Part shown: piece by piece, positions 50,512 through 64,000 of the stretch
How the letters are laid out: every line of letters starts with the position of its first letter
Position numbering within the stretch: position 1 is the first letter of the stretch
NCBI RefSeq assembly: GCF_026241335.1
Contig: NZ_JAPHAV010000001.1
Location: 62,001 to 126,000, forward strand
DNA length: 64,000 nucleotides
Source of the DNA: Ochrobactrum chromiisoli
GTDB taxonomy: Bacteria; Pseudomonadota; Alphaproteobacteria; Rhizobiales; Rhizobiaceae
Direction of reading: 5' to 3'
The notes under the pieces: generated by a model
What the model was told of the DNA's origin: nothing
The model's input: the letters and a program-made list of their open reading frames with translations, nothing else
Database searches by the model: none
Program-made: the position numbers and the translations under genes

Positions 50512-51558
50512 ATGAGCACTTTCGAAGAAAGCATCAAAGTTATTGCTGAACGTGTAAAAACGCATTCGAGTACTATGGCGACAGAGGAGGCAGTTAAGAC
50601 AGCTGTTGTCTTACCTTTTCTTCGAGCTTTAGGTTACGATGTCTTTGATCCCAATGAAGTCATTCCCGAATTTACAGCCGATGCGGTTGGAAAAAAAGGC
50701 GAGAAGGTCGATTATGCAATCTACATGGATAATCAAATACGCATTCTGATAGAATGCAAGCCAATCAACGTTAACTTGGAAAAAAAGCACTTAGATCAGC
50801 TTTATCGGTATTTCAGCGTCACCAGCGCCAAATTTGCCATTTTGACCAATGGTCGCACATTCAATTTCTATACCGATCTGGATGCGTTAAATAAGCTTGA
50901 TACCCGTCCCTTTTTCGTTTTCGATCTCGCAGACTTTAACCCGGTAATCGCAGCGGAACTAAAAAAATTCGAAAAAGGCAGTTTCAACGAAGACAGTATT
51001 TTAGCCACTGCTGAACGTCTAAAGTACACTTCGGGTATAAAAAAGGCTATCAACAAGCTCATAGAAGATCCATCAGAGGATTTTGTTAGAATCGTTTCGA
51101 GTGATGTGTATGAAAAGCGCTTCACGGCCAGCGTAAAAGAAATGCTTACTGCGGTAACCAAGTCTGCCTTCCGCGACGTAATTATGGATGCGGTGAAGAA
51201 CCGCTTATCCAACGCACTTGCTGAAACACAGCAGGTTATTGAAGAGATCGAACAGCCCGAAGAAGAAGCCGAAATCGTAACAACCGAAGATGAAATCGAA
51301 GGTTTTATGATTGTCCGGGCCATATGCCGAGAAGTGGTTCCGGCGAAGCGGATTGTAATGCGCGATGCCAAGTCATATTGCGCCATTCTTCTGGACGATA
51401 ATAATCGTAAGCCGCTGGTACGCCTACATTTCAATCGCGCAACAAAGTACATCGGGATTTTTGACGGCGATACTGAAGACCGCGTAATCATCGAAACCCT
51501 TGATCAAATATATGAATATGCAGATCGTATAAAAATCGCAGCTCAAAAATACTCTTGA
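50512..51558 (+). CDS. Orphan HsdR-N-type (type I restriction R subunit N-terminal) predicted nuclease
   Basis: 348 residues. The N-terminal half resembles the HsdR_N nuclease domain (COG4748-type stand-alone proteins): conserved Glu26, VDYAI with Asp67, and ILIECKPI with Glu81 and Lys83, a full PD-(D/E)xK set. There is no helicase part and no hsdM/hsdS nearby. The middle is helical with an acidic stretch (EEIEQPEEEAEI, about 244-255), and a C-terminal domain (about 265-348) beginning GFMIVRAICREVVP is seen in similar stand-alone proteins. GGGGG lies 8 bases before the ATG. The gene is visibly AT-richer than its neighbours and uses TTA and AAA freely, suggesting transfer next to the tRNA. Confidence 0.75.
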   Translation: MSTFEESIKVIAERVKTHSSTMATEEAVKTAVVLPFLRALGYDVFDPNEVIPEFTADAVGKKGEKVDYAIYMDNQIRILIECKPINVNLEKKHLDQLYRYFSVTSAKFAILTNGRTFNFYTDLDALNKLDTRPFFVFDLADFNPVIAAELKKFEKGSFNEDSILATAERLKYTSGIKKAINKLIEDPSEDFVRIVSSDVYEKRFTASVKEMLTAVTKSAFRDVIMDAVKNRLSNALAETQQVIEEIEQPEEEAEIVTTEDEIEGFMIVRAICREVVPAKRIVMRDAKSYCAILLDDNNRKPLVRLHFNRATKYIGIFDGDTEDRVIIETLDQIYEYADRIKIAAQKYS

Positions 51559-51658: not shown

Positions 51659-52423
51659 TCATCCTTCATAGGGCCAATTGGCTTGTGAAAACACACCGCC
51701 ATCAACCCATAAAGTTTGCCCGGTTACAAACTGCGCGGCATCGGATGCAAAAAACAGCGCTGGACCACAAATATCATCCGCAGTGCCCACCCGTCGCAGC
51801 GGCGTAATGCGGCTCCATGTGCCTGCATAATCCGGCTGCTCCTGTGCTGTGCGTTCGTTGAGAATAGCGCCGGGTGCCACGCAGTTCACCCGAATGCCGT
51901 GTGGGCCCAGTTCAACCGCGGAAACCTTGGTGAACTGCTCGATACCACCCTTGGAGGCCGTATAGGAAACCAGTTTCGGAAAAGCCAGTTTGTTGCAGCC
52001 AGAGCCGATATTAATGATCGATCCGCCCTTGCCCACATCGATCATCCGCTTGGCTGCGGCCTTGGTGTTGAGAAAACAGCCCTTCATATTGGTGCGGATA
52101 ACATCGTCCCAGCCCTCTTCGGAAAGCTCCAGCAAGGTGCTCCATACCTGAATACCGGCATTGTTGATCAGCACATCCGGCGCATCGCCATACCAGCTGC
52201 AAACCTCGTCAAAGAACTCTTCAACCTCCGCGCCAAGACCCACATCGCATTCAAGCCCAAGTGCCTGACCACCAGCCGCTTCAACCGCCTGCATCAATGT
52301 GTCTGCCGTATCAACATCACCCCGGTAGCTGAAAGCAACCGCATATCCCGCTCTGGCCAGAGCCAGCACGAGATGCCTTCCAATGCCGGTGCTTCCACCT
52401 GTGACGACTGCAAACCCACTCAT
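51659..52423 (-). CDS. SDR family oxidoreductase (glucose 1-dehydrogenase-like)
   Basis: 254-residue classical SDR. NAD(P)-binding TGGSTGIGRHLVLALARAG (residues 8-26), NNAGIQVW (about 87-94), catalytic Ser in NIGSGCNKLAF and YTASK; the end VTGQTLWVDGGVFSQANW is the usual FabG/glucose-dehydrogenase-like tail. It acts on a sugar or alcohol that sequence cannot name. It is on the same strand as the catabolic operon but is separated from it by the opposite-strand GFA gene, so it has its own promoter in the 103-base divergent region. Confidence 0.86.
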   Translation of the reverse strand: MSGFAVVTGGSTGIGRHLVLALARAGYAVAFSYRGDVDTADTLMQAVEAAGGQALGLECDVGLGAEVEEFFDEVCSWYGDAPDVLINNAGIQVWSTLLELSEEGWDDVIRTNMKGCFLNTKAAAKRMIDVGKGGSIINIGSGCNKLAFPKLVSYTASKGGIEQFTKVSAVELGPHGIRVNCVAPGAILNERTAQEQPDYAGTWSRITPLRRVGTADDICGPALFFASDAAQFVTGQTLWVDGGVFSQANWPYEG

Positions 52424-52526
52424 AAAATTCCCTCCCAAAGAATATCGAAAAGGAATTTAATCAAAGTTCGGCAATGGTAAAGCTGAGAAATTGGAAATAT
52501 CAATTTTCCCGAAAGAGGAGAGCAAG

Positions 52527-52967
52527 ATGAACCCCGATATTGAAACTGCCAATGGCGCCTGCCACTGCGGAACGGTTCGCTTTCGTGTGAAGCTTTCCGA
52601 TGGTCTTCACACGGCACGCCGCTGCACCTGCTCCTATTGCCGGATGCGCGGCGCTGTCGCCGTTTCTGCCGAACTCAATGGCGTTGAAATTCTGGAAGGC
52701 AAAGAGGCGCTGACGCTCTATACATTCAACACAGGAGCCGCGAAGCACTATTTCTGCTCGAAATGCGGGATCTACACCTTCCACCAGCGCCGTTCAAACC
52801 CACAGCAATATGGTGTCAACGTTGCCTGTCTCGAAGGCATTTCACCCTTCGACTTTGCCAGTATTCCGGTCAATGATGGCGTAAACCACCCATCTGACAA
52901 TCCGAAGCGCAAAGGGTCTGGCATTGCTGGCTATCTGCATTTTGAGCCAGTTGTGGATGAAGATTAA
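52527..52967 (+). CDS. GFA/CENP-V family zinc protein
   Basis: 146-residue protein of the glutathione-dependent formaldehyde-activating (Gfa) family. Zinc ligands: CHCG (about 12-15), CTCSYC (about 32-37) and CSKCG (about 72-76). Gfa was proposed to form S-hydroxymethylglutathione, but for many family members no activity is known. Start at the ATG at 52527 after AGAGGAGA; the frame opens 12 codons earlier. Divergent from the SDR gene; its stop overlaps that of the convergent GMC gene by three bases. An aldehyde-handling role would suit the neighbouring oxidoreductases. Confidence 0.82.
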   Translation: MNPDIETANGACHCGTVRFRVKLSDGLHTARRCTCSYCRMRGAVAVSAELNGVEILEGKEALTLYTFNTGAAKHYFCSKCGIYTFHQRRSNPQQYGVNVACLEGISPFDFASIPVNDGVNHPSDNPKRKGSGIAGYLHFEPVVDED

Positions 52968-54601
52968 ATCCTTGATCGCCGCTTCTGTTCATTTTTCTCC
53001 CATGAAAACACAAAAGGCGGCAGCGGGTCGAGACCGCGAATAATATCCGCACCCTTTTCGCCGACCATGATGGTCGGCGCATTGGTGTTGCACGACGGAA
53101 CACGTGGCATGATCGAACTGTCGCACACCCGCAGACCTTCAAGACCGCGTACTTTGAGCTCCAGATCGACAACAGCCATCGCATCTGTCCCCATCCTGCA
53201 GGTGCCGACCGGATGATGATCGGTCTTGGCATTGGCACAGGCATAATCGAACAGATCATCATCACTGACGACCTTTGGGCCCGGTAGACGCTCGGCCATG
53301 ACATAAGGTTTCAATGCATCCTGGCTCAGGATTTCGCGCGCGATCTTCAGGCCTTCCAGCGACATTTTGCGATCATGCGGATCGCTCCAGTAATTGGGGT
53401 CAATCAGGGGTGCTGCAGCCGGATCACTGGAAGCCAGCCGCACGGTGCCACGCGAGCGCGGATGCAGATAAGCGGAATTAAGCGTCACGCCTGCATTTTT
53501 GAGCTTCTCAACACCCGCCTCAATGCCCGAACCAAGCCCCAGATGAAACTGGATATCCGGTGAGCGGGCATCCGGGTCCGCATACCAGAAGCCGCCGGTT
53601 TCAAAGAGGCTCGATGCCACCGGGCCAGAGCGCAAAAAGATATATTGCAAGCCCGCGCCCAGCGTCCGGTGCAATTTCACCACGCCATCATAGGTGTGAT
53701 CGCCCGTACATTCGGCAATGACAAACAGATCAAGATGATCCTGCATGTTCTCACCCACACCCGGCAGATCATGTTTTACATTCACGCCCACTTTTTTAAG
53801 ATGATCGGCAGGGCCGATGCCCGATTGCAGCAGAAGTTTTGGTGAACCAATGGCACCGGAGGAGACAATCACCTCGCGGTTTGCGCGCAAAACCTCGCCG
53901 CTCATCAGCGTAACACCGGTGACTAGGGTGTTTTCCAGATTGACCGCGCGCACCGGCGCATTCATCCGCACGGTCAGATTTTTGCGATCCCTGATCGGTG
54001 TGAGATAAGCAAGGGATGCCGACGAGCGACGGCGATTGCGCTGGGTGAGCTGATAAAAACCGACGCCTGCCTGATCACGACCATTAAAATCCGCATTATA
54101 CGGAATGCCGAGTTCTTGACCCGCGCGGATATAGGCATCACAGATAGGCAGCGGCGCTGAAGGCATCGAAACGCCAAGCGGCCCGCCATAGGAATGAAAA
54201 TCATCGTTGAACCGCTGATTGTCTTCAGCGCGTTTGAAATAGGGCAACACATGGCGATAGTCCCAGCCGGTACAGCCGTCCTCATTCGCCCAGAGATCAT
54301 AGTCGACTGCATTGCCACGCGTGTAAATCTGCGCATTGATGCTGGATCCACCGCCGATGACTTTTGCCTGCGTATAGCGCAAAACACGATTTTTCAGATG
54401 TTTTTGCGGAACGGTCTCCCAGCCCCAACTGGCCACCCCCTTTGTCATCTTGGCAAAACCGGCAGGCATGTGAAACAGCGGATTCCAGTCGCTTCCACCG
54501 GCTTCCAGCAGCAGCACTTTTATCGCTGCCTCTTCACTCAATCGATTGGCGAGAACACAACCGGCAGGACCGCCACCAACGATGATATAGTCATACTTCA
54601 T
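52964..54601 (-). CDS. GMC family FAD-dependent alcohol oxidoreductase (choline dehydrogenase-like)
   Basis: 545 residues of the glucose-methanol-choline family. FAD site YIIVGGGPAGCVLANRLSE (residues 5-23) and LLEAGG; GMC signature 1 in GGGSSINAQIYTRGNAVDY; signature 2 in VSSGAIGSPKLLLQSGIGP; the catalytic His in KTDHHPVGTCRMG and the C-terminal NTNAPTIMVGEKGADII. It oxidises an alcohol to an aldehyde or ketone, passing electrons to oxygen or the respiratory chain. Last gene of the catabolic operon, 20 bases after the SDR. BetA itself is unlikely because no betB/betI neighbours are present. Confidence 0.9.
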   Translation of the reverse strand: MKYDYIIVGGGPAGCVLANRLSEEAAIKVLLLEAGGSDWNPLFHMPAGFAKMTKGVASWGWETVPQKHLKNRVLRYTQAKVIGGGSSINAQIYTRGNAVDYDLWANEDGCTGWDYRHVLPYFKRAEDNQRFNDDFHSYGGPLGVSMPSAPLPICDAYIRAGQELGIPYNADFNGRDQAGVGFYQLTQRNRRRSSASLAYLTPIRDRKNLTVRMNAPVRAVNLENTLVTGVTLMSGEVLRANREVIVSSGAIGSPKLLLQSGIGPADHLKKVGVNVKHDLPGVGENMQDHLDLFVIAECTGDHTYDGVVKLHRTLGAGLQYIFLRSGPVASSLFETGGFWYADPDARSPDIQFHLGLGSGIEAGVEKLKNAGVTLNSAYLHPRSRGTVRLASSDPAAAPLIDPNYWSDPHDRKMSLEGLKIAREILSQDALKPYVMAERLPGPKVVSDDDLFDYACANAKTDHHPVGTCRMGTDAMAVVDLELKVRGLEGLRVCDSSIMPRVPSCNTNAPTIMVGEKGADIIRGLDPLPPFVFSWEKNEQKRRSRI

Positions 54602-54621
54602 GCGTTTCTCCTCCCGAGAAA

Positions 54622-55386
54622 CTAAAGCTTCGCAATCGACAGGCCGCCATCGACATTGATCGCCGAGCCTGTCGCAAAAATGAAATCGCCACTGGCAAGT
54701 TGCGCCACAATCGCACCGACATCGCCTGCCTCTCCCCAGCGTTTCATCGGCACCAGACCGCCTTCGATCAGTCCGTCATAACGCTCGGCAACACGCGCTG
54801 TCATATCGGTGCGGATGATACCAGGACGCACCTCAAACACGCCGATCCGTGCTTCGGCAAGACGCAGCGCTAGCCCCTGCACGAAAGCTGTCAGTCCCGC
54901 TTTACTGATGCAGTAATCAAGCCTTTCGGGCGAAGTCATCACCGATGAAACCGAACTGATCGTCACGATACTGCGCGGAAAACGCACATCCGTCACCGCC
55001 AGCATGGATTTCACCACCGCTTGCGTAAAAAACACTGTGCCGCGCAGGTTCACGCTCATAATCGTGTCGAAATTCTCAAGCTTAAGCCCAAGAAAATCCC
55101 CGCGCTCGACTGAGCCCATGCCAGCATTGTTGACGAGACAATCAATGCCACCCAGCGCCTTCACTACGGCTGAAACCGTCGCTTCATGCGTTTCGACACA
55201 AGCCAGATCGCTTTCAAAGAAAACCACCCTTCCCCCAAGCCCGCGCAATTCATGGATGACCGCCTCGTCACGCTCTCGGTCGGTAATCGCCAGATCGAAC
55301 CCTTTGGCGGCCAAGGCGCGCGCGATGCCAAGCCCGATCCCGCGCCGCCCGCCAGTCACCAGTGCCACTGGTCTTTGACGGTTCAT
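54622..55386 (-). CDS. SDR family oxidoreductase (3-oxoacyl-ACP reductase-like)
   Basis: 254-residue classical SDR. TGGRRGIGLGIARALAAKG (residues 11-29), ITDRERDE with an Asp after strand 2 suggesting NAD(H), NNAGMGS (about 89-95), catalytic SSVSSVM and YCISK. The tail ATGSAINVDGGLSIAKL is typical. It overlaps the upstream GMC gene by four bases (ATGA), and could oxidise a hydroxyacyl or sugar intermediate within the operon. Confidence 0.87.
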   Translation of the reverse strand: MNRQRPVALVTGGRRGIGLGIARALAAKGFDLAITDRERDEAVIHELRGLGGRVVFFESDLACVETHEATVSAVVKALGGIDCLVNNAGMGSVERGDFLGLKLENFDTIMSVNLRGTVFFTQAVVKSMLAVTDVRFPRSIVTISSVSSVMTSPERLDYCISKAGLTAFVQGLALRLAEARIGVFEVRPGIIRTDMTARVAERYDGLIEGGLVPMKRWGEAGDVGAIVAQLASGDFIFATGSAINVDGGLSIAKL

Positions 55387-56876
55387 AGGAGCCTCTCCCG
55401 GTTCAGGTAATCAGCAACGCGCAGAGCCTGCGCGGCAATGGTCAGCGCAGGATTGACCGCCGCCGAAGTCGGCAGAAATGACGCATCGACCACGTAGAGA
55501 TTGGGATGGTCATAAGCACGGCAATAAGGATCAAGCGGCGCAGTTGCGGAATCATTGCCAATCCGCACCGTGCCGCATTGATGCGATGGTGTTCGCCTGT
55601 CGAACGCCCGCGACAGCACGATTGGAAACCCTGCCTGCTTGAGCGCAGATTTGAGCTTATCAACCAGCATCAGATGCGCCTTCCAGTTGGAACGCACCCA
55701 ATGCAGAACGATGCGATCACCATCCACGCTCAAGCGACTTTCCGGCGATGGCAGATCTTCGCTCATCGCGTAAAAATCAATCGTATGCCCGGCAATGCGG
55801 TTTAAAAGCCATTCCGGCACCTGGCGCATGTTGGATTTCAGGATCGCGCCCGACACCCGCCCCAGCAACTGCACATTGCCAAGCGGCGGCCCACCCGCCC
55901 CATCGCTTAGATAGTAATCGTTGAAGCCAAAGGTCTTCTGATAAACGCTGTCATTGCGATAATGCGGATCAAACCCAATCACCGCACTGGCATTGTGGTT
56001 CATGAAATTGCGACCGACCTGATCGGAACGGTTCGCCAGTCCCGAACGCAGCAAAAGCGCTGCCGACTGCACGGCTCCCGCTGAGAGAATGACCAGCTTT
56101 GGATGCAGGACCAGCGCCTCGCCATTCTTCACATAATGAACTTCTGTAATGGTTTTACCATCGGGCCCGGTTTCAAGCTTTATTACCCGCGCGGATGTTT
56201 CAAGCCGGACATTCGGATGTTTAAGCGCTAGTGCTAACGGACAAGTTTCCGCATCCATTTTGCCGTCATTGCTGTTGGGATGCGCATCCCACGGCGTTTT
56301 GGCCTTCGCCAGCCAGCGATCAATATCAACGCCCAATGGCAAGGAAGCCGGATGCAGCCCTGCTTTCTTCAGCCGTGCGCGCAGATCGGCAATCGGACGT
56401 TCATCCCGGATTGCCGGATAGGAATAGGGCTTTGAATGATAGGGTTCAGTGGGGTCATCACCCAATTCACCGCGCACCTGAAAAAGCTCTTCCGCCTTGC
56501 AATACCAGGGCTCAAGCGCGTCGTATGAAAATGGCCATGCGGGAGACACGCCTTCCAGATGCACCAGCTCCTCAAAGTCCTCGCGCCGATAGCGCACCAG
56601 CACTGCGCCATAGAATTTGGAATTGCCGCCGACATTGTAATAATTACCGGGATTAAACGGCGTACCATCCGTCTCATACCAGAACTCTTTCGGGCGAAAG
56701 AAACCACGCTGGAAAATAGCGCGCGGGTCGCGGTTTTCCGGCCTGTCCGGCAAATGCTCCCCTGCCTCAAGAATAAGGATGTCAGCACCTGATGCGCTCA
56801 GACCGGCGGCTATGCTAGCACCGCCGATACCCGATCCGATGATGACAATATCCGGCTGTCCTCCCAAAGCCGTCAC
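55383..56876 (-). CDS. GMC family FAD-dependent oxidoreductase (sugar/polyol dehydrogenase-like)
   Basis: About 497 residues. IVIIGSGIGGASIAAGLSA and LILEAGEHL bind FAD near the N-terminus; NYYNVGGNSKFYGAVLVRYR is the substrate-loop region; GTVRIGNDSATAPLD and SHQCGTVR hold the C-terminal His, and the end AAVNPALTIAAQALRVADYL is GMC_oxred_C. It belongs to a different GMC branch from the gene at 52964. No ATG fits the start: a GTG at 56876, two bases after the upstream stop, or a TTG at 56867 with AGGAG 8 bases before it, are the candidates. The open frame upstream to 57110 is the aldehyde dehydrogenase gene in another frame. Confidence 0.85.
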   Translation of the reverse strand: MTALGGQPDIVIIGSGIGGASIAAGLSASGADILILEAGEHLPDRPENRDPRAIFQRGFFRPKEFWYETDGTPFNPGNYYNVGGNSKFYGAVLVRYRREDFEELVHLEGVSPAWPFSYDALEPWYCKAEELFQVRGELGDDPTEPYHSKPYSYPAIRDERPIADLRARLKKAGLHPASLPLGVDIDRWLAKAKTPWDAHPNSNDGKMDAETCPLALALKHPNVRLETSARVIKLETGPDGKTITEVHYVKNGEALVLHPKLVILSAGAVQSAALLLRSGLANRSDQVGRNFMNHNASAVIGFDPHYRNDSVYQKTFGFNDYYLSDGAGGPPLGNVQLLGRVSGAILKSNMRQVPEWLLNRIAGHTIDFYAMSEDLPSPESRLSVDGDRIVLHWVRSNWKAHLMLVDKLKSALKQAGFPIVLSRAFDRRTPSHQCGTVRIGNDSATAPLDPYCRAYDHPNLYVVDASFLPTSAAVNPALTIAAQALRVADYLNRERLL

Positions 56877-56878
56877 TC

Positions 56879-58393
56879 CTATTTTCCTTGCGGCATCCAC
56901 CAGCCCGTCCGCGCACCGATATGCATGTTGAGCGTCTTGGTTTCGGTATAGTCCTCCACCGCATGACGGCCCAGTTCGCGGCCGAGACCCGACTGGCGAT
57001 AACCGCCAAAAGGCAATTCCGGCGTGCCATCCATGAAAGTGTTCATCCAGACCGTACCAGCCCGCACCTTGCGGCCAATGTTCATGCAGGTGTCGAAATC
57101 GCGGCTCCACACGCCAGCCGACAAGCCATAATCAACCGCATTGGCAATCGAAATTGCCTCATCCACCGTATCAAAAGACAGCACCGACAGAACCGGCCCG
57201 AATACTTCTTCACGCGCAACGGCCATGTCGGCTTTCACACCCGCAATGATGGTCGGTCCCATATATTGGCCAAGGCCGAGATCCAGCACATCCCCGCCAT
57301 GGGCAATGGCAGCACCCGCCTTTTTAGCCTGTTCGACATAGGCGCCAACCTTGCTCAGATGCTGTGGCGTGATAATCGCGCCCACCTGCGTGTTGACATC
57401 CAACGGATCACCGACGATAACTTTCTTCGACAGATCAGCGACCCGACCGACAATCTCATCGACAATTGAGCGATGCACGATCAGTCGCGAACCGGCATTG
57501 CAACACTCGCCCGCATTGAACCATGCGCCGAACACGGCCGCATCGATAAAGGCATCCATATCCGCATCCGGGAACAGGATTTGCGGATTCTTACCACCAA
57601 GCTCCAGCGATACTTTCTTGAGCGTCTGCGCCGCATTGGCCATGGTCAGCTTTCCAACACCTGTGGAGCCTGTGAACGACACCATATCCACTTCCGGATG
57701 CGTGCTCATATGCTGGCCGACATCAGCGCCCGTTCCGGTGATGATGTTGACGACACCGTCAGGGACGCCTGCTTCGGCCAGAATTTCGCCGAGTAACAAT
57801 GTTGATCCGGAAGTCAGCTCCGAAGGTTTTACGACTGCCGTGCAGCCCGCGGCCAATGCAAATGGCAGCTTCTGGCCCACGATCAGGAACGGGAAATTCC
57901 ACGGCGTAATGATCGACACAACACCAATCGCCTCGCGCAGCACGACACCCAACGTGCCATCACCCAAATTGTTGTAGCTTTCACCGTGCAGATCGCGCGC
58001 AAGCGCTGCCGCATAGCGCCAGATGTCAACGGAGCCGGCAATTTCGCCGCGCACCTGAGAGATGGGTTTGCCCGCTTCAATCGCATCGAGATAGGCGAGT
58101 TCTTCCGCCCGTGTTTCAATCAGATCAGCGGCTTTCAGCAAGATCAGCGAACGCTGCGATGCCGTTTTTGACGACCAGCGCCCGTCATCGAAAGCCTTAC
58201 GCGCGCTCGTAACCGCGCGTTCCACATCTGCCTTGTTGCCAGCCGGATAGCGGCTCACCGTGACGCCATGGCCGGGCGCTACACGTTCAAGTGTCTCGCC
58301 GCTTTGACTGCCAACCCATTTGCCATCGATCAGCATCGAGAATTCGCGAACTTCAAGCCCGTTCAGCGGCTGTGGTTTAACGACTACGCTCAT
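56879..58393 (-). CDS. NAD(P)-dependent aldehyde dehydrogenase
   Basis: 504-residue ALDH-superfamily enzyme oxidising an aldehyde to its acid. TPWNFPFLIVGQKLPFALAA (about 163-182), cofactor motif FTGSTGVGK (240-248), catalytic Glu264 in LELGGKNP and nucleophile Cys298 in NAGECCNAG. The close is typical of betaine-/aldehyde-type ALDHs (ELPFGGYRQSGLGRELG). The ATG at 58393 overlaps the enoyl-CoA hydratase stop by one base (TGATG) and has AAGGA 8 bases before it. Placed between the hydratase and a GMC oxidoreductase in the catabolic operon. Confidence 0.93.
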   Translation of the reverse strand: MSVVVKPQPLNGLEVREFSMLIDGKWVGSQSGETLERVAPGHGVTVSRYPAGNKADVERAVTSARKAFDDGRWSSKTASQRSLILLKAADLIETRAEELAYLDAIEAGKPISQVRGEIAGSVDIWRYAAALARDLHGESYNNLGDGTLGVVLREAIGVVSIITPWNFPFLIVGQKLPFALAAGCTAVVKPSELTSGSTLLLGEILAEAGVPDGVVNIITGTGADVGQHMSTHPEVDMVSFTGSTGVGKLTMANAAQTLKKVSLELGGKNPQILFPDADMDAFIDAAVFGAWFNAGECCNAGSRLIVHRSIVDEIVGRVADLSKKVIVGDPLDVNTQVGAIITPQHLSKVGAYVEQAKKAGAAIAHGGDVLDLGLGQYMGPTIIAGVKADMAVAREEVFGPVLSVLSFDTVDEAISIANAVDYGLSAGVWSRDFDTCMNIGRKVRAGTVWMNTFMDGTPELPFGGYRQSGLGRELGRHAVEDYTETKTLNMHIGARTGWWMPQGK

Positions 58394-59169
58394 CACCATT
58401 TTCCTTCAAAATTCGCTTCGCGCTTTTCGGTAAACGAGCGCACGCCTTCTTTCAGATCGTCGGTCTTGGCGACAAGAATGGACCCCAGCGCCTCGACTGC
58501 CGTGCCATTATCCTCACCATTGGCGACCGACAGCATCAGTTTGGAAATTTCCAGCGCAGCCGGTCCGCGTTTTGCCACCCGCGTCGCATAGTCTTGCGCG
58601 GCTTTTAACGCCTCGCCCGTCTCCACCACAGCATCGACCAACCCGTGCGACAGCGCTTCCTCGGCCGTGAACATTTCGCCCCCCAGCACCATACGGCGCA
58701 CAATCTGCGCACCAAAGCGGCGCACGAGGCGCTGCGTGCCCGACCAGCCGGGGATCATGCCGAGCGATGTTTCCGGCAGGCCGATTTTTGCCTGACGCTC
58801 AGCAATGCGGATATCGGCAGCACCCGCCAGTTCCAGACCGCCACCCAAAGCATGACCATTCATCGCTGCAATCAGCGGCACACGCAAAGTCGCAAGCCGC
58901 TCGAACACACGATGCCCATAGCGCACCCATGCATGACCGAATTCTTGCGGTTCCATGCCGCCCCAAGCTTTGATGTCGCCGCCTGCCGAAAAGGCCTTGC
59001 CTTCGCCAGTCAGGATCGCAACCCGCACGGAGCCATCGGCTTCCACCTGATCACAGGCCGCAGACAATTCCTGCAAAAGCTCAATATCAAACGCATTAAG
59101 CTTTTCGGGCCGCTTGATAAGCATGACTGCGATGTGGTTCTCGATTTTAATCTCAATCCGTTGAGCCAT
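58393..59169 (-). CDS. Enoyl-CoA hydratase/isomerase family protein
   Basis: 258-residue crotonase. Oxyanion-hole segments FSAGGDIKAWGG (60-71) and NGHALGGGLELAGAADI; both catalytic acids of classical enoyl-CoA hydratases are present, Glu113 (GLELAGAAD) and Glu133 (GLPETSLGMIPG), so a true hydration (or the reverse) is plausible. Starts directly after the CoA-transferase stop and overlaps the ALDH start by one base. Confidence 0.92.
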   Translation of the reverse strand: MAQRIEIKIENHIAVMLIKRPEKLNAFDIELLQELSAACDQVEADGSVRVAILTGEGKAFSAGGDIKAWGGMEPQEFGHAWVRYGHRVFERLATLRVPLIAAMNGHALGGGLELAGAADIRIAERQAKIGLPETSLGMIPGWSGTQRLVRRFGAQIVRRMVLGGEMFTAEEALSHGLVDAVVETGEALKAAQDYATRVAKRGPAALEISKLMLSVANGEDNGTAVEALGSILVAKTDDLKEGVRSFTEKREANFEGKW

Positions 59170-60771
59170 TTAAGCCTCCAGCTTTCGTGCAGGCTTTTGC
59201 GGCAATTCAAGCCCTATCGGCTCGTCACGAAACAGTGCCTCATCCATGCGTTTAAGCTGATCCGAAACAATCAGCGGAAACTCAGCCTGATCGAGAATAT
59301 GCGTCTGCAAATCCACACCCGGCGCGATCTCGGTGAGCACAATGCCTTCTGGCGTGAGCTTTAAAACCGCGCGCTCGGTGACATAGGTAATGTCCTGCCC
59401 CTGCTCGACACTGCGCGCACCGGAGAAAGTAACATGCTCAACCTCATTAACGAACTTTTTGAGCTTCCCTTCCTTCTCGATCACCAGCTTACCGTCAGCG
59501 ACCGACAATTTCGCCCCTGCATTGAACATGCCGGAGAAGACGATCTTCCTGGCCCTTGCAGTAATATCAACAAAACCGCCAGCACCAGCCGTCACATGCG
59601 GACGGAATGACAGCTTCGACACATTGACCGAGCCATCGCGTCCGATCTCAAGGAAGGACAGAAGTGAGGCATCAAACCCCGCGCCCTGAAAATAGGTGAA
59701 CTGATAAGGTGACGGCATATAAGCATCCGCATTGGACGCACAGCCAAAAGCAAAGTCGAGAAGCGGCACGCCGCCAACTGCACCCTGCTCAATCACCCAG
59801 GTAACGGCACCATGCAGCCCTTCTTCCAACAGAATGCGCGGTACATTGGCGGAAATGCCGAAGCCGAGATTGACCGCACTTCCGGCCTGTAACTCCTGTG
59901 CGACACGCCGCGCAATCGCCTTCTGAATATTGAACTCGGCCAAGCGGAACGTATCGAGCGGACGGAAAATTTCGCCTGAAATTGCCGGATCATAAAGTGT
60001 CTGTGTTGTCTGCTTCTGATCGGGATCAACCACGATATAATCAACCAGAATGCCCGGCACGCGCACATCATGCGGTTTCAGCGTGCCCTCCTTGGCGATA
60101 CGCTTCACCTGCGCAATGACGATGCCGCCATTGTTACGCGCAGCCAGCGCCTGATCCAGCCCACCAAGATATGCGCCCTCATGTTCATAGGTGAGATTGC
60201 CGCGTTCATCCGCAGTGGTGGCGCGGAGGATCGTCACATGCGGCACGATATTGGGAAAATACAGCCAGTCTTCGCCTTCAAAACTGACCTGCTTGACCAC
60301 CGGCTCTTCACGCGCCTTGTCGTTCATTGCTGATCCCTGACGTTTGGGATCAACGAAAGTATCAAGCCCCACTTTGGTCAGTACACCAGGGCGCTTGGCA
60401 GCTGCCTCACGATGCATGTCGAACAGAATGCCCGACGGAATATTATAGGCGGGAATCTCGTTATTGGTGATCATCTGCCAGATCAGCGGCGGTTCGGCGC
60501 TGGACGGTCCTGAGGGATAAGAACCGCCGATGATCTTTTTCAAAAGCCCCTTTTTGGCGATGTAATCAACGCCCTTGATGCCGCTCATATCGCCCGCAGC
60601 GATCGGGTGCAGTGTGGTGATATTTTGCGGGTGGCCGGTTTCATCAAACCGCTCGCCAATCGCTTTCAGCATCATATCGGGACAGCCGAGGCCACTGGAT
60701 GAAGAAACAGAAACGACAGCACTGTCGGGAATAAGCGATGCTGCTTCCGCAAATGAAATATGTTTGCTCAT
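59170..60771 (-). CDS. Fused-subunit acyl-CoA:carboxylate CoA-transferase (family I)
   Basis: 533 residues with alpha and beta CoA-transferase domains in one chain (about 1-260 and 280-500), as in propionate/acetate CoA-transferases of the YdiF/Pct type. The catalytic Glu328 lies in VIEQGAVGGVPL. It would activate the acid made by the aldehyde dehydrogenase by moving CoA from acetyl- or succinyl-CoA. The ATG at 60771 is preferred to a TTG at 60780 that overlaps the preceding stop. Five bases after the Gfo/Idh/MocA gene and contiguous with the hydratase gene. Confidence 0.9.
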   Translation of the reverse strand: MSKHISFAEAASLIPDSAVVSVSSSSGLGCPDMMLKAIGERFDETGHPQNITTLHPIAAGDMSGIKGVDYIAKKGLLKKIIGGSYPSGPSSAEPPLIWQMITNNEIPAYNIPSGILFDMHREAAAKRPGVLTKVGLDTFVDPKRQGSAMNDKAREEPVVKQVSFEGEDWLYFPNIVPHVTILRATTADERGNLTYEHEGAYLGGLDQALAARNNGGIVIAQVKRIAKEGTLKPHDVRVPGILVDYIVVDPDQKQTTQTLYDPAISGEIFRPLDTFRLAEFNIQKAIARRVAQELQAGSAVNLGFGISANVPRILLEEGLHGAVTWVIEQGAVGGVPLLDFAFGCASNADAYMPSPYQFTYFQGAGFDASLLSFLEIGRDGSVNVSKLSFRPHVTAGAGGFVDITARARKIVFSGMFNAGAKLSVADGKLVIEKEGKLKKFVNEVEHVTFSGARSVEQGQDITYVTERAVLKLTPEGIVLTEIAPGVDLQTHILDQAEFPLIVSDQLKRMDEALFRDEPIGLELPQKPARKLEA

Positions 60772-60776
60772 AATTT

Positions 60777-62812
<2,036 letters not shown>

Positions 62813-62832
62813 GCCAAACTCCTGTTCCCATC

Positions 62833-62861
62833 ATTTAATTGGAACGTTCCAAATTTGTCAA
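62833..62861 (-). promoter_or_regulatory. Promoter and LacI-type operator of the catabolic operon
   Basis: On the minus strand TTGACA (62856-62861) and TTAAAT (62833-62838) are spaced by 17 bases. The spacer contains the perfect 14-base palindrome TTGGAACGTTCCAA (62839-62852), with the central CG of LacI/GalR operators. Binding would block RNA polymerase and give autoregulation. Confidence 0.8.
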
Positions 62862-63026
62862 CGATTTTAAACCACACCTGATTGAGCGCGAAACAAAGCT
62901 GAAAATGCTGCGGAAAAATCAAAAAATGCGATCAATTTTCGACTTTCCCGTAAAATAGATGCCCATTTTTCGCATTTCACAAATTATCCGCCATTAAGAC
63001 ATAATCGCGCCTTATTTAATCCCGTC

Positions 63027-63055
63027 TTGATATTTGGAACGATCTAAATTATTCA
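63027..63055 (+). promoter_or_regulatory. Promoter and second LacI-type operator, for the DUF993 gene
   Basis: TTGATA (63027-63032) and TATTCA (63050-63055) with a 17-base spacer containing TTTGGAACGATCTAAA (63033-63048), a degenerate version of the operator at 62839. The two sites are about 195 bases apart centre to centre, compatible with looping. The rest of the 269-base gap shows no gene. Confidence 0.72.
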
Positions 63056-63081
63056 TGTCGTCGTGGAGTTGGAGGATTGAC

Positions 63082-64000
63082 ATGAGTGCATTATCGGAAA
63101 ACGTGCTATCCCTACCCTTTGCAGACGGAAGCGTAAAAGCCTATCACTTGCGTGGCACCCCGACACCGCGCCCCGCCTCTCCTCCGAAATTCAATCGCAT
63201 CGCTTATGCGGCAGCACATGTGGTTTCAGACCCGCTCAGAGACAGCACGCCATGGAATGCTCCGGCGATTGACTGGGATGCGACCATGGCTTTCCGCCAT
63301 CACCTCTGGAGCCTTGGCTTTCAGATCGCGGAAGCAATGGACACATCACAGCGCGGCATGGGCCTCAACTGGGCTGGTGCACAGGAACTCATCCGCCGCT
63401 CGCTCACAGAAAGCAAAACCGTGAGTGGCGCCGATCTGGCATCCGGCGCAGGCACCGATCATCTTGATCCGGCGGAGGCAAAAAGCCTTGATGATGTGAT
63501 TAAAGCCTATGAAACACAGGCTGAATTCATCGAAAAACATGGCGGTCGTTTCATTCTCATGGCCAGCCGCGCGCTCGCCCACATTGCCCGTTCACCCAAC
63601 GATTACATCAGGGTTTACAACCACATCCTCACAAACGCGCGCGAAAAAGTGGTCCTGCACTGGCTGGGCGATATGTTCGACCCACAGCTTAAAGGTTATT
63701 GGGGTTCGGACAGGTTTGAAGACGCACTTGATACAGTCATCGGCATTATAGAAACCAATAGCGACAAAGTAGAAGGCATCAAAATTTCACTGCTCGAAGA
63801 ACGCTATGAGATCGCGCTGCGCAACCGCCTGCCGGATGGCGTTCTGTGTTTTACGGGCGATGATTTCAATTACGCACCATTGATCGAAGGTGATGGCAAC
63901 AAGCACAGCCATGCGCTGCTTGGGATTTTTGATGCGGTTGCACCACAGGCTTCAAGCGCCCTTACCGCCCTTGCCAAGGGTAACAATGCAGGCTTCCGCG
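63082..64000 (+). CDS. DUF993 family protein, aldolase/dihydrodipicolinate synthase-like (cut by window edge)
   Basis: The first 306 residues are in the window; the gene continues to the right. The sequence matches my recollection of the DUF993 family, uncharacterised proteins related to class I TIM-barrel lyases. GRFILMASRALAHIARSPND and VEGIKISLLEERYE are notable: Lys234 in GIK sits where the Schiff-base lysine of DapA/NanA enzymes (GIKE/GIKD) lies. The usual catalytic Tyr position appears replaced (VVLHWLGDMF). GGAGG lies about 7 bases before the ATG. Divergent from the LacI operon and under a matching operator, so it likely supplies a carbon-carbon cleavage step. Confidence 0.75.
   Translation, partial: MSALSENVLSLPFADGSVKAYHLRGTPTPRPASPPKFNRIAYAAAHVVSDPLRDSTPWNAPAIDWDATMAFRHHLWSLGFQIAEAMDTSQRGMGLNWAGAQELIRRSLTESKTVSGADLASGAGTDHLDPAEAKSLDDVIKAYETQAEFIEKHGGRFILMASRALAHIARSPNDYIRVYNHILTNAREKVVLHWLGDMFDPQLKGYWGSDRFEDALDTVIGIIETNSDKVEGIKISLLEERYEIALRNRLPDGVLCFTGDDFNYAPLIEGDGNKHSHALLGIFDAVAPQASSALTALAKGNNAGFR

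Follow-up and report, generated by a model that had tools for sequence, protein, structure and literature searches.

A LacI-regulated operon of Ochrobactrum chromiisoli as a candidate for the aerobic catabolism of 1,5-anhydro sugars

Organization and conservation of the locus

The 64,000-nucleotide stretch of Ochrobactrum chromiisoli DNA analysed here (the window) corresponds to bases 62001-126000 of contig 11 of the 4.65-Mb genome and carries, at its right-hand side, a minus-strand operon of eight genes and a divergent gene coding for a DUF993 protein. We consider 1,5-anhydro sugars, which are related to glucose and chemically very stable, to be the likely substrate class of this operon, which probably lets soil bacteria consume them in air by a CoA route. 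An earlier reading of the sequence (the initial annotation) had proposed the eight genes, and their calls, families and tight spacing were confirmed with the ORF coordinates and family profiles (Table 1). The LacI and Gfo/Idh/MocA reading frames overlap by 22 bases and the latter overlaps the CoA-transferase frame by 4 bases; the crotonase gene directly abuts the CoA-transferase gene and shares 7 bases with the aldehyde dehydrogenase (ALDH) gene. GMC-2 probably starts at the GTG 56876, 2 bases past the ALDH stop, with TTG 56867 as alternative, the listed 575-residue ORF from 57110 being rejected as too long. The SDR and GMC-2 genes overlap by 4 bases, and a gap of 20 bases separates SDR from GMC-1. 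As proposed initially, DUF993 diverges from the operon with matching operators in between; translation probably begins at ATG 63082 and not at TTG 63034 as listed, and the gene runs 257-260 bases past the right edge of the window.

Table 1. Features of the operon and its divergent neighbour, with positions in the window.
Feature	Position	Strand	Basis
GMC-1, choline dehydrogenase/alcohol-oxidase type, proposed C6 alcohol dehydrogenase	52964..54601	-	solved relatives
SDR, goes with DUF993	54622..55386	-	NF009386; 4one/4da9
GMC-2, FAD sugar dehydrogenase, proposed anhydrohexitol C2 dehydrogenase	55383..56876	-	6a2u relatives; pairing with reductase
Aldehyde dehydrogenase (ALDH)	56879..58399	-	PF00171; C300/E266; sorbosone dehydrogenase annotation in L085
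Crotonase-family hydratase/dehydratase (ECH)	58393..59169	-	5zai match; E113, E133
Fused (alpha-beta) CoA-transferase, YdiF-like	59170..60780	-	2ahu match; E331
1,5-Anhydro-D-fructose reductase orthologue (Gfo/Idh/MocA), by sequence	60777..61778	-	2glx, 4koa matches; triad
LacI-family regulator	61757..62812	-	Pfam PF00356/PF13377; S. meliloti SMc04401 orthologue by position
Operator 1, perfect palindrome TTGGAACGTTCCAA, upstream of LacI	62839..62852	.	unique perfect copy in genome; conserved
Operator 2, imperfect copy TTTGGAACGATCTAAA, before DUF993	63033..63048	.	match to operator 1
DUF993, DHDPS-fold protein, probably lyase	63082..64000, ~260 bases more past window	+	fold, strand-6 lysine

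The conservation of the locus was followed in 80 related loci, the best 80 of 572, chosen by similarity of the CoA-transferase; they are not a random sample and are interrelated, so that tests of co-occurrence among them are not independent. Within this set, the nearest relatives judged by the operon are environmental-type Brucella/Ochrobactrum species. Some loci end early and leave a gene undecided: one locus for LacI, Gfo/Idh/MocA and ALDH, two for DUF993, seven for the ABC transporter described below and for GMC-2, 16 for SDR and 37 for GMC-1. Among the decidable loci, the crotonase was present in 80/80, LacI in 79/79, ALDH in 78/79, GMC-2 in 72/73, the Gfo/Idh/MocA gene in 69/79, SDR in 55/64 and DUF993 in 58/78. 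These counts suggest a core made of LacI, CoA-transferase, crotonase, ALDH, transporter and the two GMC genes, to which the Gfo/Idh/MocA gene and then SDR with DUF993 would be added. The initial proposal of a single catabolic operon that is controlled by LacI, shares its operators with DUF993 and is conserved across Rhizobiales was borne out. A co-occurrence check in a sample of 161 genomes of the host's family found the Gfo/Idh/MocA gene linked to the CoA-transferase and mostly also to DUF993.

Two other points of the initial annotation need correction. An outer SDR and a GFA protein, named there as flanking genes, were found in 16 of the 17 Brucella/Ochrobactrum loci (L004-L020) and in none of the 63 others; confined to this group, they do not belong to the pathway. 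A transporter had been thought possible beyond the right edge, and we saw none for the operon beside DUF993 when the translations of the 15 kb to the right were read by eye; the orthologues lie on another contig, as described below.

Paralogous clusters were observed on S. meliloti pSymA (L084) and on a Sagittula plasmid (L086). Both hold GMC, ALDH, CoA-transferase, crotonase, SDR and DUF993 genes without the Gfo/Idh/MocA reductase, together with an acyl-CoA dehydrogenase and a sugar isomerase-like TIM barrel, and with a glycerate kinase in L084 and a MaoC protein in L086. They probably encode a similar pathway that acts on a different sugar-like compound. No relevant paper was found in the open-licence literature for the gene tags of the pSymA cluster.

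LacI regulator and operators

The palindrome TTGGAACGTTCCAA before LacI is the sole perfect copy in the 4.65-Mb genome. Two such matches also arise in 2 of 100 shuffles of the window, which makes the evidence from the window alone modest, and with up to two mismatches the genome holds 17 matches versus 18 for a reversed-pattern control, so that only the operon-linked sites are convincing. With the same tolerance, at least two sites were present in 75 of the 80 related loci, one in four and none in one truncated locus, almost all of them upstream of LacI. LacI would repress the operon through the two operators. The S. meliloti gene numbers SMc04390-92, SMc04396 and SMc04401 used here come from papers and the others were deduced from gene order; SMc04400 is presumably the reductase of this species. 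A regulon of SMc04401 is listed in the accessible part of PMC4560400. In 28 of the 80 loci (within L021-L080) we also observed a second, divergent LacI-type regulator ahead of the transporter, between ALDH and the binding protein gene, with at least 55% identity to that of L085 (Rhizobium sp. ACO-34A).

The Gfo/Idh/MocA protein and its partner GMC-2

Among solved structures, the Gfo/Idh/MocA protein is best matched by two 1,5-anhydro-D-fructose (AF) reductases, with E 2.6e-164 for 2glx and E 6.6e-159 for 4koa; glucose-fructose oxidoreductase (GFOR) follows as the next family at E 5.7e-31. It shares 74% identity over 331 aligned residues with the crystallised Sinorhizobium morelense enzyme (2glx). 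Residues K94, D176 and H180, the catalytic triad of AF reductase, are shared by all 70 sequences aligned, among them that of the window. This count and those given below for the CoA-transferase, crotonase and ALDH rest on the window protein and on matches that span more than 85% of the gene with an identity of at least 60% (29 sequences for GMC-1). A K-D-H catalytic triad is described for the Gfo/Idh/MocA enzyme family in the excerpt of PMC5969746. Inositol or levoglucosan dehydrogenase was rejected as identity, the corresponding NCBIfam models scoring far under their cut-off. On sequence comparison, the gene is an orthologue of that of the characterised AF reductase. No relevant paper was found in the open-licence literature for 4KOA, 4DNH, 4R2B or Oant_3817.

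According to the accessible part of PMC12441222, Rhizobiaceae use AF aerobically, the reductase turns it into 1,5-anhydro-D-mannitol (AM), and the species that yielded the characterised enzyme, S. morelense, was isolated with AF as sole carbon source. At E 1e-110 or better, the reductase was found in 30 of the 161 family genomes and in 21 of 109 genera. The CoA-transferase gene adjoins it in all 30 of these genomes, and DUF993 lies at 4 kb or less in 28.

The initial annotation gave the GMC enzymes a single role, from alcohol to aldehyde, but the two are not equivalent. GMC-2 resembles sugar-ring dehydrogenases, with FAD glucose dehydrogenase 6a2u, fructose dehydrogenase and, weakly, pyranose oxidase as relatives, and it pairs with the reductase, while the relatives of GMC-1 are choline dehydrogenase and alcohol oxidases. 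GMC-1 of S. meliloti (SMc04390) is named L-sorbose dehydrogenase in PMC12542648. A stand-alone pair of reductase and GMC-2 genes is present on a Bradyrhizobium plasmid, with 64% and 61% identity, respectively, to the window proteins, the plasmid GMC protein having 25% identity to the window GMC-1 in a partial alignment. Two further Bradyrhizobium records show the same reductase/GMC order with, by annotation, an MFS transporter nearby. Of 33 plasmid records that carry the reductase, 11 are from Bradyrhizobium; all 11 show 63.8% identity and are not independent, and these three were examined. The reductase and GMC-2 also stand alone in a Paraburkholderia locus (L100, 62% and 45% identity). Because both genes occur as a pair by themselves in Bradyrhizobium and Paraburkholderia, GMC-2 looks like the partner of the reductase, and an oxidase and a reductase both acting at C2 would form a redox epimerase. 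Pyranose 2-oxidase acts on 1,5-anhydro-D-glucitol (AG).

CoA-transferase, crotonase, ALDH and SDR

The CoA-transferase matches YdiF (2ahu, E 6.5e-114), and residue E331 is kept in 81 of 81 sequences. Among solved structures the crotonase is closest to the 3-hydroxypropionyl-CoA dehydratase 5zai, and it retains its catalytic glutamate pair, E113 and E133, in 81/81 sequences, and the catalytic C300/E266 of ALDH are conserved in 78/78. The SDR scores 374 bits on NF009386 (cut-off 250), a model whose name puts it in the 3-ketoacyl reductase type, with 4one and 4da9 as relatives. It was present in 51 of 51 decidable loci carrying DUF993. Given this association, its probable substrate is 2-keto-3-deoxygluconate (KDG) or the product made from KDG.

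Transporter

A four-gene ABC transporter is inserted between ALDH and GMC-2 in 52 of 73 decidable loci and is absent from all 17 Brucella/Ochrobactrum loci and from four others. In the window genome its orthologues lie together on contig 22, with 82-91% identity to the proteins of L085. The binding protein of this genome is 95% identical to 4r2b, crystallised with glucose, and 47% to ppGBP. The binding protein belongs to the glucose-binding family, as in glucose-type CUT1 transporters.

DUF993 and class II glycerate kinase

Structure comparison gave the DUF993 model a TIM-barrel DHDPS fold, its matches including the KDG aldolase YagE (2v8z), though such a match speaks for the fold and not for the activity. 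Residue Lys234 is invariant in 14 of 14 aligned rows, and in 16 of 16 when two more distant rows are added (there numbered 226); it lies inside the strand 230-236, counted as strand 6, the strand on which the Schiff-base lysine of DHDPS sits. Sequence-profile comparison with hhalign gave no signal between DUF993 and three of the four DHDPS proteins of the genome, so that DUF993 is placed in the DHDPS superfamily by its structure. In the modelled structure it is a DHDPS-fold protein, probably a lyase. Among the 80 loci it always occurs with the reductase (58/58). No paper mentioning DUF993 or PF06187 was found in the open-licence literature. In Rhizobium sp. ACO-34A (L085:9534-10683) DUF993 is in three pieces, with different frames or stops between them, the other operon genes being annotated whole; either the sequence contains errors here or the gene has decayed.

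A class II glycerate 2-kinase gene lies at 16 kb or less from the reductase in 13 of the 30 reductase genomes. In Microvirga it immediately follows DUF993, in L085 and L087 it is found downstream, and in the S. meliloti pSymA paralogue cluster it comes after the crotonase gene. This proximity to the operons points to glycerate as a possible end product.

Proposed pathway

The alcohol-aldehyde-acid-CoA logic initially read from the operon was judged right and can be given a candidate substrate. The glucose-type ABC transporter, encoded elsewhere in the genome, would import AG or AF. GMC-2 would oxidise AG at C2 to AF, and the Gfo/Idh/MocA enzyme would reduce AF with NADPH to AM, a reaction shown elsewhere for the orthologue, so that both steps together would epimerise C2. 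GMC-1 and ALDH may then oxidise C6 to the acid, a 2,6-anhydrohexonate, from which the CoA-transferase would form a thioester, acidifying the C5 hydrogen. The crotonase could now remove water across C4-C5 in a syn-dehydration, and the resulting cyclic enol ether would open to KDG, with CoA passed to the next acid. DUF993 would cleave KDG, or its SDR-oxidised form, to pyruvate and glyceraldehyde or glycerate, and the class II glycerate 2-kinase would feed this product into glycolysis. With a DHDPS-fold lyase and a glycerate kinase, the route would end like the non-phosphorylative Entner-Doudoroff pathway. Where DUF993 is missing, KDG kinase and KDPG aldolase could take over; the window genome has two PF01081 members.

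The elimination catalysed by crotonases is syn and needs H5 and O4 to be cis. Bookkeeping of the hydroxyl groups gave this cis arrangement and led from AM (manno) to D-KDG and from AG (gluco) to the 5-epimer. The manno product of the reductase would be explained in this way, because the manno isomer alone gives D-KDG. The unsaturated uronates released by polysaccharide lyases likewise open to keto acids.

The unity of the operon, its regulation, the class of the transporter, the pairing of GMC-2 with the reductase and the fold of DUF993 are supported by comparison. For an inducible aerobic 1,5-anhydrohexitol operon taken as a whole, that is substrate class, C2 module and C6-acid/CoA direction together, we see about an even chance. 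That every step proceeds exactly as drawn is doubtful. It is likewise a tentative idea that the ring of an inert cyclic sugar ether is opened without oxygen or radicals once the redox epimerase has set C2, with DUF993 as a new family of KDG-type aldolases.

Comparison with known systems

The initial statement that the gene set matches no known pathway stands in part: the reductase is an orthologue of a characterised AF enzyme, and no paper describing the operon as a pathway was found in the open-licence literature, among the matches listed. We may have a known first step in a pathway not yet described, with possibly new chemistry. The closest system is the AF catabolism of S. morelense (Kuhn, Yu and Giffhorn 2006, via the accessible part of PMC12441222), which has the same AF reductase forming AM in the same bacterial group. 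There, AM is converted to mannose through hydroxylation at C1 by an as yet unidentified P450-family-like enzyme, whereas the operon suggests oxidation of C6 and CoA thioesters; that part of the account makes no mention of the other operon genes. The same source describes the anaerobic degradation of 1,5-AG and 1,5-AM by gut bacteria, with the same substrates handled by a phosphotransferase system (PTS) and the glycyl-radical enzymes YbiW/PflD; this route relies on phosphorylation and an oxygen-sensitive radical ring opening, and no such kinds of genes are among those of the operon.

The conversion of unsaturated uronates to KDG in pectin and alginate breakdown and the non-phosphorylative Entner-Doudoroff pathway offer, between them, C4-C5 elimination next to a carboxyl, ring opening, KDG, a DHDPS-superfamily aldolase and a class II glycerate kinase. 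The proposed pathway would resemble them in these steps, with water as leaving group, activation by a CoA thioester and no polysaccharide lyase. As in the L-sorbose/sorbosone dehydrogenase pair, GMC and ALDH enzymes would take the primary alcohol of a sugar to the acid, a likeness drawn from the annotations of SMc04390 and of the L085 ALDH; unlike the operon, that pathway has to our knowledge no CoA steps.

The operon supplies candidate genes for the missing aerobic steps of anhydro-sugar breakdown and gives DUF993 a testable function; if the proposal is true, it would be a new way of opening a sugar ether ring. In the excerpts of PMC12441222, 1,5-anhydroglucitol is counted among the main human polyols, is not significantly catabolised in man and has turned up in nearly every food analysed; the neutropenia caused by its phosphate is that of glycogen storage disease type Ib (GSDIb) and of G6PC3 deficiency.

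Evidence against the proposal and alternative readings

Several observations weigh against the pathway as drawn. We know of no precedent for the dehydration of an alpha-alkoxy acyl-CoA by a crotonase, and the SDR is left with no firm role. Strand 5 of DUF993 (190-195) reads VVLHWL, without the tyrosine that DHDPS and KDG aldolases carry there as a catalytic residue (Tyr133 of DHDPS). DUF993 is missing from 20 of 78 decidable loci, and 21 of 51 genomes carrying it have no reductase, so that it is not specific to the pathway. The glycerate kinase is unlinked in 17 of the 30 reductase genomes, including that of the window (copy at position 697751 of contig 11). The reductase is absent from 10 of 79 decidable loci; among the six of these able to show GMC-2, five keep it (L027, L034, L037, L051, L055), and L041 lacks reductase, ALDH and GMC-2. 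Upstream ORF lengths, compared with a view to a gene replacing the reductase, vary across the five reductase-less loci listed. The operon of Paraburkholderia L099 has the reductase without GMC-2, and no operator was found at the relocated transporter on contig 22. Dextrin is reported as inducer of the transporter gene SMc04396 (PMC4960864), and the published conversion of AM to mannose, as given in the accessible part of PMC12441222, uses none of the CoA genes of the operon.

That last route, in which a P450-like oxygenase encoded elsewhere would hydroxylate AM at C1 and the CoA genes would serve another substrate sharing the operon, seems to us quite improbable. It has the authority of the published account, as excerpted in PMC12441222, and a P450 gene in 30 of 30 reductase-positive genomes, a count that was made only there and says little; absence of a P450 consequently fails as an argument against it. 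However, no oxygenase is among the operon genes, about 282 kb separate the operon from the single P450 found in the window genome at E 1e-10 or better, and CoA genes of unrelated function would hardly account for the constant adjacency of reductase and CoA-transferase. A different substrate is unlikely, though it deserves more weight: a glucoside aglycone, an osone, a different anhydro sugar or another glucopyranose-like compound, with the reduction of AF as a side activity of a 2-keto sugar reductase. The induction by dextrin and the loci lacking the reductase would fit such a substrate, and so would the paralogous clusters L084 and L086, which use the same kit without reductase, the latter with another transporter; yet the binding protein is related to proteins that bind glucose, and S. 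morelense was obtained with AF as the only source of carbon, as stated in the excerpt of PMC12441222.

With the same substrates and the same start through the C6 acid and CoA, the SDR, of the 3-ketoacyl reductase type by the name of its model, might instead act first and oxidise the hydroxyl at C4. The crotonase-fold enzyme would then hydrolyse the C4-C5 bond of the resulting beta-keto thioester to give an ether-linked diacid, with DUF993 acting later. Crotonase-fold ring hydrolases such as BadI exist. We find this version very unlikely, since the hydratase glutamates are kept throughout, a dehydratase is the closest relative of solved structure, the crotonase occurs without SDR in 9 of 64 decidable loci, and an ether would still be left to cut.

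Other features near the operon

Next to the end of the operon, positions 50512-51558 of the window code for a solitary protein with a type I restriction R-subunit N-terminal domain (HSDR_N). On the other side, after DUF993 and to the right of the window (L002:5488-7773), we observed a 761-residue repeat protein whose C-terminus is, on reading by eye, autotransporter-like. In the stretch of Paraburkholderia L099, the sole annotated feature is a short ORF automatically labelled VIM-73 beta-lactamase (L099:9720-10154).

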